DNA from: Vicingaceae bacterium
GTDB lineage: Bacteria; Bacteroidota; Bacteroidia; Flavobacteriales_E; Vicingaceae
Reading direction: 5' to 3'
Length of the DNA stretch: 64,000 nucleotides
Assembly: GCA_018402765.1 (NCBI GenBank)
Contig: JAGYIE010000001.1
Location: 682,001-746,000 of the forward strand
In this document: in pieces, positions 39,024 to 42,794 of the stretch
How the letters are laid out: the number at the start of each line of letters is the position of its first letter
How positions within the stretch are numbered: the stretch's first letter is position 1
Made by a program: the position numbers and the translations under genes
Notes under the pieces: model-generated
Databases searched by the model: none
The model's input: the letters and a program-made list of their open reading frames with translations, nothing else
Told to the model about the DNA's origin: nothing

Positions 39024-40370
39024 ATGAAAAATTCGCTAATCGAAAAAATAAAAAATGCAACCAATTTCACAGATTACGAAAGAGACTCGCTGATTAAGCG
39101 GCTGGAAGCAAGTGCTAAAAGTGGATTAATTTTTGAAGCTAAAGAAGAGGAAATAGAAAAGGATCTTGCTAAAAAAAATACTCTTTTAAAGGAAATAAAC
39201 GCTAAAAAAGTTGGAGCTACAGGAATTGAGCATCGACTTATAGAAGGAGACAATCTGCATGGCCTTAGTTGCTTAATAAACCAAAAAGAATCGGTTGATA
39301 TAATTTACATAGACCCTCCATACAACACAGGTAATAAAGATTTTAAATACAATGATCATTACGTAGATTCTACAGATGAGTTTCGACATTCTAAATGGAT
39401 TTCGTTTATGTCAAAGCGATTAAAGATTGCCCATCAATTATTGAAAGATGATGGCGCTATCTTCATTTCGATTGATGATGCTGAACATGCCCGACTTAAG
39501 CTATTATGTGATGAAATTTTTGGGAATACTAATTTCGTTGCCAATTTAGTTCGTAAAAACAAGTCAGGTTCAGGGCATGATAGTAAAAAAATAGCAGTAG
39601 AATACGATTATGTTCTCTGTTATGCTAAAAAAATAGATCAGCTTAAATTTAGTAAAGAGGATGCAGGAGCTGAACAAGACCCCAAATACAAACTCAAAGA
39701 TAAACACCTCAACCACAGAGGTAAATATTATCTTCGAGACTTAGATTATAAAGGAAGTTATAGCCGAAGTTTAGATTACGCTATAATTGCCCCAGATGGC
39801 ACTGAAATGTGGCCAGGAAATACGTTCGGAAAACCAAATACCTGGAGATGGGGACAAGAAAAATTTGATTGGGGAATTGATAATGATTTTATAGTATTCA
39901 AACAGAAAAATGGTAAATGGAAAGTATATATTAAACAATACCAGTTTGTAGATAATAAAAACAACAAAAGGCAACGTTTGATTCCGCATAGAGCACTTAT
40001 AGACTTCTCTAATGCAATTGGCAGCAATGAATTAAAAAGCATCCTCAATCAAGATATTTTTACGTATCCTAAACCTACTGCTCTTGTTGAATTTATCTTA
40101 GATTTATTTGCACATAATAGATCATTGCATATACTTGATTTCTTTGCAGGAAGCGGCACTAGCTTGCATGCTACATTACTGAAAAATAGAGCAGACGGCG
40201 GTAGTCGAAGATGCACTTTGATTACGAATAATGAGAATAAAATTTGTGAAGAAGTTACCTATCAAAGAAGTAAAAAAGTAATTGAAGGATACAAAAATAA
40301 GAATGGCAAATTAATTGAAGGACTTAGTGAAAACGTTCTTCGATACTATAAAGCAAGTTTTGGCAAATGA
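39024..40370 (+). CDS. Adenine/cytosine amino DNA methyltransferase of a putative R-M system
   Basis: 448 residues. Motif IV DPPYN at 97-101 precedes motif I FFAGSGT near 374, the beta-class order of amino-methyltransferases (typical of type III Mod and many type II enzymes). A helical N-terminus (1-65), SIDDAEHARLK and a ~150-residue insertion between the two motifs likely holding target recognition (NTWRWGQEKFDWG, YIKQYQF) are visible. Methylates adenine N6 or cytosine N4; the site cannot be read from the sequence. Its stop overlaps the next gene by four bases (ATGA), coupling it to a nuclease-like protein. Confidence 0.9.
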   Translation: MKNSLIEKIKNATNFTDYERDSLIKRLEASAKSGLIFEAKEEEIEKDLAKKNTLLKEINAKKVGATGIEHRLIEGDNLHGLSCLINQKESVDIIYIDPPYNTGNKDFKYNDHYVDSTDEFRHSKWISFMSKRLKIAHQLLKDDGAIFISIDDAEHARLKLLCDEIFGNTNFVANLVRKNKSGSGHDSKKIAVEYDYVLCYAKKIDQLKFSKEDAGAEQDPKYKLKDKHLNHRGKYYLRDLDYKGSYSRSLDYAIIAPDGTEMWPGNTFGKPNTWRWGQEKFDWGIDNDFIVFKQKNGKWKVYIKQYQFVDNKNNKRQRLIPHRALIDFSNAIGSNELKSILNQDIFTYPKPTALVEFILDLFAHNRSLHILDFFAGSGTSLHATLLKNRADGGSRRCTLITNNENKICEEVTYQRSKKVIEGYKNKNGKLIEGLSENVLRYYKASFGK

Positions 40371-41056
40371 TAAAACCGCTAAAAATAACTGTAAGCAAAC
40401 AAGATGTGCTTACTGCTATCACTTTAGCAAAAAAGCAACTTTTTATAGATAACCTTAGAAATAGATCACTGAATGTTGCATTTGACAGTAAGATTAGAGG
40501 ATATGTTGGAGAATTAGCCGTCAAAAATTGGTTTAAAACTAATAATATCGATTTTCTATCTACTAACACAATCAATAGAAAGAGTAACATGGATGTCGAT
40601 TTCCTATTTAAAGGAAAATTACAAAACTTAGAAATAGAATTAAAGACATCCCTAATTCCAGATCAAGACCGAACTATAGATGAGGCTATTTGTCAGCGGG
40701 ATCTAAAGCTTATAAAACGTGGTAATGATAGCATAGAACAACTAAAAAGCGACCTGCATATCCAACTTTTTTTTAATCAAAGAAGAGCCGCGAAAGACTT
40801 ATGGTTAGAACAACAGCCGGTAGTGAGTTTAAATACCACTGAAGAAGAAATTTACACTCATCTAGCTTGCTTTAGATATTTAGAAGACACTTTTTTAGTT
40901 GGATGGATTGATAAGCCAACACTTATTAAACAAATTGCTAACAAATCCAACTTTAAAAAAACCTGGAAATATGGCCAAAGAGAGTTTTGGACGTGTAGTT
41001 TAAAGTCCGAAATACGACCAATGGATGAGCTAATCATTTTTTTGAAAGAAGCTTAA
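40367..41056 (+). CDS. PD-(D/E)xK-like nuclease, probable restriction endonuclease partner
   Basis: 229 residues with no named family that I recognise. A conserved-looking RGYVGELAVKNWF (Glu49) followed by NMDVDF (Asp76, Asp78) and LEIELKTS (Glu91, Lys93) spells E-x(28)-D-x(12)-E-x-K, the PD-(D/E)xK nuclease pattern; strand-helix spacing fits. The C-terminal half has WKYGQREFWTC and no further motif. The four-base ATGA overlap with the methyltransferase makes a type II-like restriction enzyme the best explanation. The lack of a helicase/ATPase Res subunit argues against type III. Activity and specificity are inference. Confidence 0.72.
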   Translation: MIKPLKITVSKQDVLTAITLAKKQLFIDNLRNRSLNVAFDSKIRGYVGELAVKNWFKTNNIDFLSTNTINRKSNMDVDFLFKGKLQNLEIELKTSLIPDQDRTIDEAICQRDLKLIKRGNDSIEQLKSDLHIQLFFNQRRAAKDLWLEQQPVVSLNTTEEEIYTHLACFRYLEDTFLVGWIDKPTLIKQIANKSNFKKTWKYGQREFWTCSLKSEIRPMDELIIFLKEA

Positions 41057-41114: not shown

Positions 41115-42794
41115 ATGCTGCAAGAAAAAGCGTTAGCCTTATTAAAGTCTGGGGAAAATGTATTCTTAACAGGATCCGCAGGAACTGGAAAGACATACGT
41201 ATTGAATCAATACATTAATTATTTAAAAGATAGAAAGGTGGCCGTAGCAACCACTGCTTCTACCGGAATAGCAGCTACTCATATGAATGGAATGACGATA
41301 CATTCTTGGGCCGGTATTGGAGTAAAAGAACAGCTTACAGGCAAGCAATTAGCCAGCATGAAAGATAAAAAATACTTGCGTGACCATTTAGAGAAGACCA
41401 ATGTCCTTATAATTGATGAAATATCAATGCTTCACAAAGTACAATTGAATTTAGTAAATGAAGTACTACAGTTCTTTAGAGGGAATGAAAAGCCTTTCGG
41501 AGGAATTCAAGTTGTTTTATGTGGAGACTTTTTTCAATTACCTCCGATAGGGAAACCTGGCGAAAAGAGCAGTGAAAAGTTTGCGTTTATGTCCGAGTCG
41601 TGGGTTTCTGCAAACTTTCAAATTGCTTATTTAACAGAGCAATATCGACAAGAAGGTGGAGAATTAAATCAAATCCTAAACGAAATTAGAGCATGCCAAA
41701 TTAGTCAGCGAAGCAGACAACTTCTACAGCAGGCTCAAATGAACGAATTTCATAAAGAGCAAGAACCTACAAAGCTTTACACACATAATTACGATGTTGA
41801 CAATATTAATTACGATTATTTATCCAAACTAAAAAGCAAATCAAAGTCATATACAGCTGAAACAAAAGGAAATGAAAAATTACTAATGACGCTTAAAAAC
41901 TCCGTTTTGGCTAGTGAAGAGCTAGAGTTAAAAATCGGAGCAAAAGTTATGTTTGTCAAAAACAATAGTGAAAAAGGCTATGTAAATGGAACGCTTGGTA
42001 CAGTGATCGGTTTTAATGAGGATCATATTCCCTCAGTGAAGCTTTTTGATGGAAGAACCGTATATGCTCATCATGAGAGCTGGGGCGTAATGGATGATAA
42101 AGGAAGTGTATTGGCTAGTTTTAGTCAAATTCCCTTAAGGTTGGCTTGGGCAATTACGATTCACAAATGCCAAGGAATGACCTTAGACGCTGCTGAAATA
42201 GATTTATCAAAAACTTTCGAAAAAGGACAAGGTTATGTAGGTCTTTCTAGACTTAAAAAATTAGAGAATTTAAAACTTATTGGATTTAATGATTTGTCAT
42301 TAGAAGTAGATCGTTTAGCATTTAAAGCGGATTTAAGGTTTCAAGAACTATCTGCTCAAGCTGATATACAAAATACTAATGCAGAGCTTGAGAATAATGC
42401 AATTAATTTTATAAAAAAGTGTGGCGGACTAACTAACCCCAATGATATAGAACGAAATAAGAAGAAAATAAAAGAGAAGAAGAAAGAAAAAAAAGAATCT
42501 ACCTATGAGGTAACTTTGGAGTACATGCGCCAAGCAATGACATTAAAAGAAATAGCACATGAAAGAGGCATGACTACCGGGACTATTGCCGGTCACCTTA
42601 TACGATTGAAAAAAGAAAATCCAGACTTCAATTTCAGTCAATACAAACCTAAAAAAACGATCTGTGATAAAGTAGAAATAGTCTATAAAATGCTTCCAAA
42701 AGGCGAACCAATTAGCACTAAAAATATCTATGATCAATTAGAGGGAAAAGTAACCTATGATGACATTAAGTTAGCATTGGCTTTTGTAGTGTAA
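41115..42794 (+). CDS. PIF1-like superfamily 1 helicase with C-terminal HTH
   Basis: 559 residues. Walker A GSAGTGKT (20-27), Walker B LIIDEISML (~97), VLCGDFFQLPP, YRQEGGELNQIL, and the motif V/VI region TIHKCQGMTLDAAEIDL...GYVGLSRLKKL mark a PIF1/RRM3-type 5'-3' DNA helicase. After a Lys/Glu-rich linker (~445-460) comes a helix-turn-helix domain (MTLKEIAHERGMTTGTIAGH, HTH_40-like). PIF1 enzymes unwind G-quadruplexes and D-loops. It lies 58 bases after the nuclease gene; whether it belongs to the R-M unit or to the host background is unclear, since similar helicases are common in Bacteroidota. Confidence 0.9.
   Translation: MLQEKALALLKSGENVFLTGSAGTGKTYVLNQYINYLKDRKVAVATTASTGIAATHMNGMTIHSWAGIGVKEQLTGKQLASMKDKKYLRDHLEKTNVLIIDEISMLHKVQLNLVNEVLQFFRGNEKPFGGIQVVLCGDFFQLPPIGKPGEKSSEKFAFMSESWVSANFQIAYLTEQYRQEGGELNQILNEIRACQISQRSRQLLQQAQMNEFHKEQEPTKLYTHNYDVDNINYDYLSKLKSKSKSYTAETKGNEKLLMTLKNSVLASEELELKIGAKVMFVKNNSEKGYVNGTLGTVIGFNEDHIPSVKLFDGRTVYAHHESWGVMDDKGSVLASFSQIPLRLAWAITIHKCQGMTLDAAEIDLSKTFEKGQGYVGLSRLKKLENLKLIGFNDLSLEVDRLAFKADLRFQELSAQADIQNTNAELENNAINFIKKCGGLTNPNDIERNKKKIKEKKKEKKESTYEVTLEYMRQAMTLKEIAHERGMTTGTIAGHLIRLKKENPDFNFSQYKPKKTICDKVEIVYKMLPKGEPISTKNIYDQLEGKVTYDDIKLALAFVV

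Follow-up and report, generated by a model that had tools for sequence, protein, structure and literature searches.

What kind of system does a DNA methyltransferase form with an adjoining protein of no named family? The question is posed by two genes, here called M and R (Table 1), in the window, the 64,000-nucleotide stretch of a Vicingaceae bacterium that we analysed (GenBank assembly GCA_018402765.1, contig JAGYIE010000001.1, forward-strand positions 682,001 to 746,000). A first-pass annotation, made from the letters alone, had read them as a Type II restriction-modification pair with a new endonuclease family; its coordinates (39024-41056) and the four-base overlap of the two genes are right in every position, and E49, D76, D78, E91 and K93 lie at the R residues that it gave. 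We consider it probable that M and R constitute a two-gene, ATP-independent, Type II-like restriction-modification (R-M) system that was born from a Type III system by partner replacement.

The ATGA overlap recurs in Acidiluteibacter (L013) and, by the coordinates of the open reading frames, in two further genomes (G009 and G016); R would be translated by coupling from the mRNA of M. Predicted promoters at the locus did not exceed those in shuffled sequence, and terminators numbered 2 as compared to 1.2 in shuffles. Phase variation of the pair was rejected: no tandem repeats were found at the locus, and where M looks split, in G007, the assembly has a gap filled with N.

Table 1. Features of the M-R locus, in positions of the window.
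Feature	Position	Strand	Conservation or basis
M: beta-class amino-DNA-methyltransferase, Type III Mod-like, without Mod C-terminal domain, 448 aa	39024..40370 (incl. stop)	+	
M motif IV, DPPY, residues 97-100	39312..39323	+	invariant in 8/8 aligned M/Mod proteins
M target-recognition domain, residues ~202-347, between motifs VIII and X	39627..40064	+	bounds from beta-class layout
M motif I, FAGSGT, residues 374-379, AdoMet-binding	40143..40160	+	invariant in 8/8 aligned M/Mod proteins
ATGA, 4-base overlap of M stop and R start	40367..40370	+	
R: putative PD-(D/E)xK restriction endonuclease, unnamed family, 229 aa	40367..41056 (incl. stop)	+	aligned homologues
R E49, candidate helix-A acidic residue, within GYVGELA	40511..40513	+	9/10 aligned R; Gly in G016 (L007)
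R D76-x-D78, candidate 'PD' aspartate	40592..40600	+	10/10 aligned R
R E91-L-K93, candidate (D/E)xK motif	40637..40645	+	E91 and K93 in 10/10 aligned R

Ancestry of the methyltransferase

M matches the Pfam DNA methylase family PF01555 (N6/N4 amino-methyltransferases; E 2.7e-34), its best PADLOC match is the Type III methyltransferase (E 3.6e-89), and in the PDB it matches the Type III Mod Mbo45V (2.4e-47), another Mod (8.6e-44) and EcoP15I (1.3e-35). The order of its motifs, with DPPY at residue 97, a recognition domain of ~145 residues and FAGSGT at 374, is that described for the beta class, in which motif IV is followed by the recognition domain and then by motifs X and I (FxGxG) (PMC4490356), and bears out the earlier assignment to the beta-class amino-methyltransferases. 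Catalytic core and recognition-domain layout are those of a Type III Mod. Of 56 M and Mod rows, 48 entered a tree, after removal of L029, L031, L037, L105, L113 and L137 as fragments or truncated genes and of L131 and L135 as duplicates; there the ten R-partnered Ms and the M of G036 form one branch (support 99/97, recovered in 98% of bootstrap trees), which sits beside Mods that have a Res neighbour. Identity of M with four Res-partnered sister Mods (L049, L140, L141 and L142) is 37-48%.

What sets M apart is its end. M terminates in LRYYKASFGK, while direct alignment has all four sister Mods running at least 100 residues further. The boundary at which M stops is that of the C-terminal domain (CTD) that contacts Res, which in EcoP15I Mod comprises residues 539-644 (PMC4490356). 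Intact proteins of the R-partnered clade carry 0-17 residues past the region aligned to the window's M, as compared to at least 100 in 37 of 40 distinct Type III-like Mods; of the three short-tailed ones, L095 has its tail in an overlapping frame, L105 is followed by a transposase and L113 meets a contig end. At its other end, the N-terminus, M has retained a region that can be compared to the dimerisation domain of Mods. Judged by its sequence, M is a Type III Mod without CTD rather than an ordinary Type II methyltransferase.

The partner of that domain is missing as well. No Res ATPase adjoins the pair, and a search with the Res of a sister system, which was positive in four of four controls and which distant Res types may escape, found no Res homologue in any of the 12 R-bearing genomes, the window's own included; a second Res query likewise gave 0/12, in a run that had no control. 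This agrees with the first-pass annotation, which had noted the absence of a Res ATPase. The Res subunit with its helicase ATPase, by which a Type III system is recognised, is thus absent from the locus, and the pair has the separate R and M genes without ATPase of a Type II system. R itself was considered as a descendant of the Res nuclease domain, and this was rejected: profile-profile comparison with the Res protein and with Res C-termini gave nothing (probability 0.1%).

A truncated Mod and a missing Res are also what a decaying Type III remnant would leave behind, that is, an orphan Mod beside an unrelated open reading frame. We regard this as highly improbable, given that every intact clade member has the identical tail end, that R has homologues in two distant families and co-occurs with M, and that dN/dS is low for M as well as for R (for R, 0.077 between G443 and G762 and 0.099 between G013 and G033; in three more of the five pairs compared, synonymous sites are saturated). 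Purifying selection acts on R.

Relatives of M are found on mobile elements (five plasmid and two phage records). In each of the five records opened (four plasmid, one phage), a helicase or Walker-A gene adjoins the methyltransferase; these are ordinary Type III systems and were set aside. As a separate observation, Mesomycoplasma hyorhinis carries three successive Mod-like genes followed by one helicase gene, with small open reading frames in between (L149:2635-10085), an unusual multi-Mod Type III array.

The candidate endonuclease and its association with M

R matches nothing at E <= 1 in Pfam, NCBIfam or PADLOC, in keeping with its earlier description as a protein of no recognised family, and its profile matches nothing at E <= 10 among PDB chains. 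Against PHROGs it gave two weak matches only, to an intron-encoded nuclease (0.0066) and to a family of unknown function (0.01). When ten R homologues were scanned at E <= 10, matches were confined to single members (among them PADLOC AbiQ, 4.5e-4, and PDC-S01, 6.7e-4), and PD-(D/E)xK profiles matched none of the homologues even at this threshold. An AlphaFold model of R computed from two sequences has a mean pLDDT of 45 and a pTM of 0.33, and secondary structure estimated from residue propensities gave no decisive pointer to an alpha-beta core.

The residues speak more clearly. The first-pass annotation had named loss of the acidic and lysine residues in homologues as the result that would overturn a nuclease; D76, D78, E91 and K93 are invariant in all ten aligned R proteins, down to 35% identity, and E49 is kept in nine, and the refutation fails. 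Acidic residues and a (D/E)xK lysine conserved across homologues are the mark of the PD-(D/E)xK nucleases, and because of this conservation R is likely to be one of them.

The lack of a nuclease profile match would equally suit a protein that assists or regulates M, for example as a stand-in for the missing CTD; M has, after all, lost a protein-protein interaction domain, and R is always accompanied by M. However, few stretches of the R alignment are conserved as well as the acid/ExK region, M persists alone in one genome (G036), and an accessory protein would not need the frozen recognition domain of M described below. We therefore consider such a role very unlikely and retain R as a putative nuclease.

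How widely is this protein distributed? The window's R matched 11 of 100 related genomes, its own counted; one match (L011 in G081) is an AAA ATPase and was rejected, leaving ten, all in family f1, of whose 46 genomes they make up 10. A named relative is Acidiluteibacter ferrifornacis S-15 (Flavobacteriia; L013), with 69% identity. In a class-wide draw R matched 7 of 395 genomes, six from f1 and, weakly, G244; a phylum-wide draw at E <= 0.01 gave 6 of 395, namely the window's own genome, a strong match in G443 and four weak ones (G106, G526, G710 and G732). Among 61 relatives of G443, R was found in two, G443 itself and G762. Short exact R peptides, a scan beyond whose reach distant homologues lie, occurred among the contigs of 84,980 species in Acidiluteibacter only. 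G244 contains an open frame of 228 codons (L145:3566-4033; L020) between purD and a decarboxylase-like gene, which matches the R profile (E 6e-5), keeps GE...D...ExK and is a possible distant relative of R; no methyltransferase was seen near it in a stretch of 8 kb.

In the f1 genomes with R, M lies directly upstream in 10 of 10. In G443 and G762, M and R are on separate contigs in unrelated gene neighbourhoods, R directly after mutS2 and M after a Sir2-like gene among cellular genes. All 12 R-bearing genomes (the ten among the 100 relatives plus these two; related genomes, not independent ones) nevertheless carry M, and R without M was never seen; a third genome of the G443/G762 genus (G761) has neither. 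The reverse case, M without R, is the clade member G036, and in G003 M runs off the contig end beside proline dehydrogenase, which leaves the locus incomplete for R. Joint decay of the two genes, as expected if R is harmful without M, is seen in G022, where M is interrupted by an in-frame stop and R by a frameshift and a stop.

Two further observations concern these genomes. The R-less M of G036 adjoins a gene that by eye is serine-recombinase-like (L047:5611-8817) and is perhaps a mobile orphan methyltransferase. In G443, R precedes a tmRNA-like stretch (read by eye), and the block of mutS2, R and this stretch is ~96-100% identical in DNA between G443 (L128:4833-8300) and G762 (L143:3800-7400), while other compared genes have 81-96% protein identity; the block is a recent recombination tract between species. 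That R alone had moved between the two was rejected, since 98% identity spans mutS2, R and the stretch behind them together.

Genomic position and the recognition domain

The first-pass annotation had likened the position of the pair, between ordinary metabolic genes, to that of acquired defence genes, and this likeness was not supported. A proline dehydrogenase gene lies upstream of the pair in 10 of 10 f1 loci from six genera, and the same membrane-protein gene, which we take to be EI24-like, lies downstream in 9 of 10. Because these neighbours are kept across six genera, the pair is an old resident, vertically inherited and subject to losses. The pair is missing from this site in both genomes of genus g9: in G020 the flanking genes are ~168 bases apart, and in G010 there is ~2 kb of other sequence. 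Recent horizontal gain is contradicted by the synteny, and no R homologue was found on plasmids, phages or viral contigs. Vertical inheritance, together with the unlinked M and R of two genomes, is unusual for a mobile defence system. Two further neighbours of R were noted. In the window, and in its genus only, R is separated from the membrane-protein gene by a gene for a PIF1-type helicase that ends in an HTH_40 domain (41115-42794), and in G026 R is followed at once by what, by eye, is a toxin-antitoxin pair of ParE-like and ParD-like proteins (L042:2278-2902).

Conservation of the recognition domain was expressed as the ratio of identity in this domain (residues 202-347 of the window's M) to identity in the catalytic parts (70-201 and 348-424). 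Across 45 pairs within the R-partnered clade the ratio is 0.82-1.14 (median 0.99), whereas 238 pairs of Type III proteins, taken at a catalytic identity of 0.5-0.9 and including rows without a seen partner, have a median of 0.44, and only 6 of the 238 reach 0.82 or more. For this comparison, in which pairs are not independent of each other, the longer L140 and L142 stood in for L133 and L134, and the M of G036 was set aside. On these ratios, the recognition domain of M is frozen, unlike that of Type III Mods. Enzymes that share one recognition module are described as diverging in specificity, while restriction enzymes overall tend to recognition immutability (PMC4081073). Such freezing would be imposed by a separate R that reads the site of M on its own, and a conserved regulatory methyltransferase would fit too.

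The latter possibility deserves attention, since M might be a house-keeping methyltransferase and R a MutH-like or repair nuclease that nicks or cuts M sites for strand discrimination or repair, not against phage. The frozen recognition domain, a chromosomal position fixed over six genera, and the place of R directly behind mutS2, with M among cellular genes, in G443 and G762 would all agree with such a role. Against it, adjacency to mutS2 is confined to one genus and lies within the shared 98% recombination tract, and R matches neither MutH nor any repair family. Moreover, the patchy presence of the pair (10 of 46 family genomes), the sites empty of it in G010 and G020, and its decay in G022 indicate that it is dispensable. 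A house-keeping function is thus decidedly unlikely, and a dispensable R-M system remains our preferred reading.

One-strand marking and comparison with known systems

In the R-M system that we propose, M, a dimeric Mod-type enzyme, would read a short site via its target-recognition domain and methylate an amino group there, adenine N6 being likelier than cytosine N4. We infer that R has the fold and activity of a nuclease, reads the same site independently of M, cuts it when unmethylated and thereby serves in defence. As to ancestry, a Mod would have lost its Res-docking CTD, Res with its helicase and nuclease would have been lost, and a separate nuclease would have replaced it. The annotated Type II system with a new endonuclease family therefore stands in part: there is a methyltransferase-putative nuclease pair, and the family is missing from curated libraries, but the methyltransferase is a CTD-less Type III Mod.

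This descent creates a difficulty. Type III enzymes mark one strand, so that one daughter is unmarked after replication, and self-cutting is avoided because two opposed unmarked sites are needed for cleavage (PMC3874151). Should M likewise mark one strand only, each replication would leave one daughter duplex unmarked and open to cutting by a plain Type II nuclease, and the pair, as far as its genes tell, has lost the motor that Type III systems use for the two-site check. Self-protection could be achieved if M protects both strands, if R needs two sites, or if M acts faster than R.

One way out would be a single R-M complex in which M recognises and R cuts nearby, following Type IIG/III-like logic and possibly requiring two sites. 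Such a complex would need an answer to the problem of one-strand marking. It is compatible with the region, similar to the dimerisation domain of Mods, that M retains at its N-terminus, and for the MmeI family a check of paired, opposed sites is described as probable (PMC4081073). However, enzymes with shared recognition diverge widely in specificity (PMC4081073), while the recognition domain of M is frozen; the Res-docking domain is gone from M, and G443 and G762 make M and R from separate loci. We consider this arrangement unlikely and favour a separately reading R.

A fuller scenario, which we advance tentatively and which may well prove wrong, is that a Mod gave up its Res-docking domain together with Res and the motor, that a small, unrelated nuclease of independent site specificity was recruited, and that recognition froze as a result; marking would still be one-stranded, and unmarked daughter DNA would have to be told apart from foreign DNA without a motor, for example because R requires two opposed sites or because M outpaces R. 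If true, this would be a second, two-protein solution to one-strand protection beside MmeI. On our preferred reading, the pair is a concrete case of R-M type conversion by nuclease swap, whose molecular traces are a missing docking domain and a frozen recognition domain. It is compact and cloneable, suited to asking how one-strand methylation can protect a genome without an ATP motor, and R represents a candidate family of endonucleases that escapes present defence-gene models. Neither this pair nor any Type II-like system built on a CTD-less Mod was the subject of a paper that our literature search brought up.

How does the pair compare to known systems? With Type III systems (EcoP15I and the sister Mod-Res systems L049, L140, L141 and L142), M shares the Mod motifs, the domain order and the position of the recognition domain; it differs in that the pair has no CTD, no Res and no ATPase, that the recognition domain is frozen, and that a separate small nuclease is present which is not detectably a Res nuclease domain. 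The pair resembles Type II systems with separate R and M in its two genes, the absence of an ATPase, an R never found without M, and the immutability of the recognition domain. Unlike these, its M is of Type III descent and there is a single M, though an enzyme of the Mod type will usually mark just one strand of its asymmetric site, and cleavage by R is putative. With the PD-(D/E)xK superfamily R shares the conserved E...D-x-D...E-x-K in a compact protein, but it lacks a profile match to any member family, and a fold of this type is putative. MmeI and the Type IIL (IIG) enzymes, finally, work without an ATP motor. Their asymmetric sites are marked on one strand (PMC4081073), as the site of M would be if M is Mod-like. 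MmeI, however, is one fused chain whose shared recognition domain diverges freely, whereas M and R are two proteins with a frozen domain.
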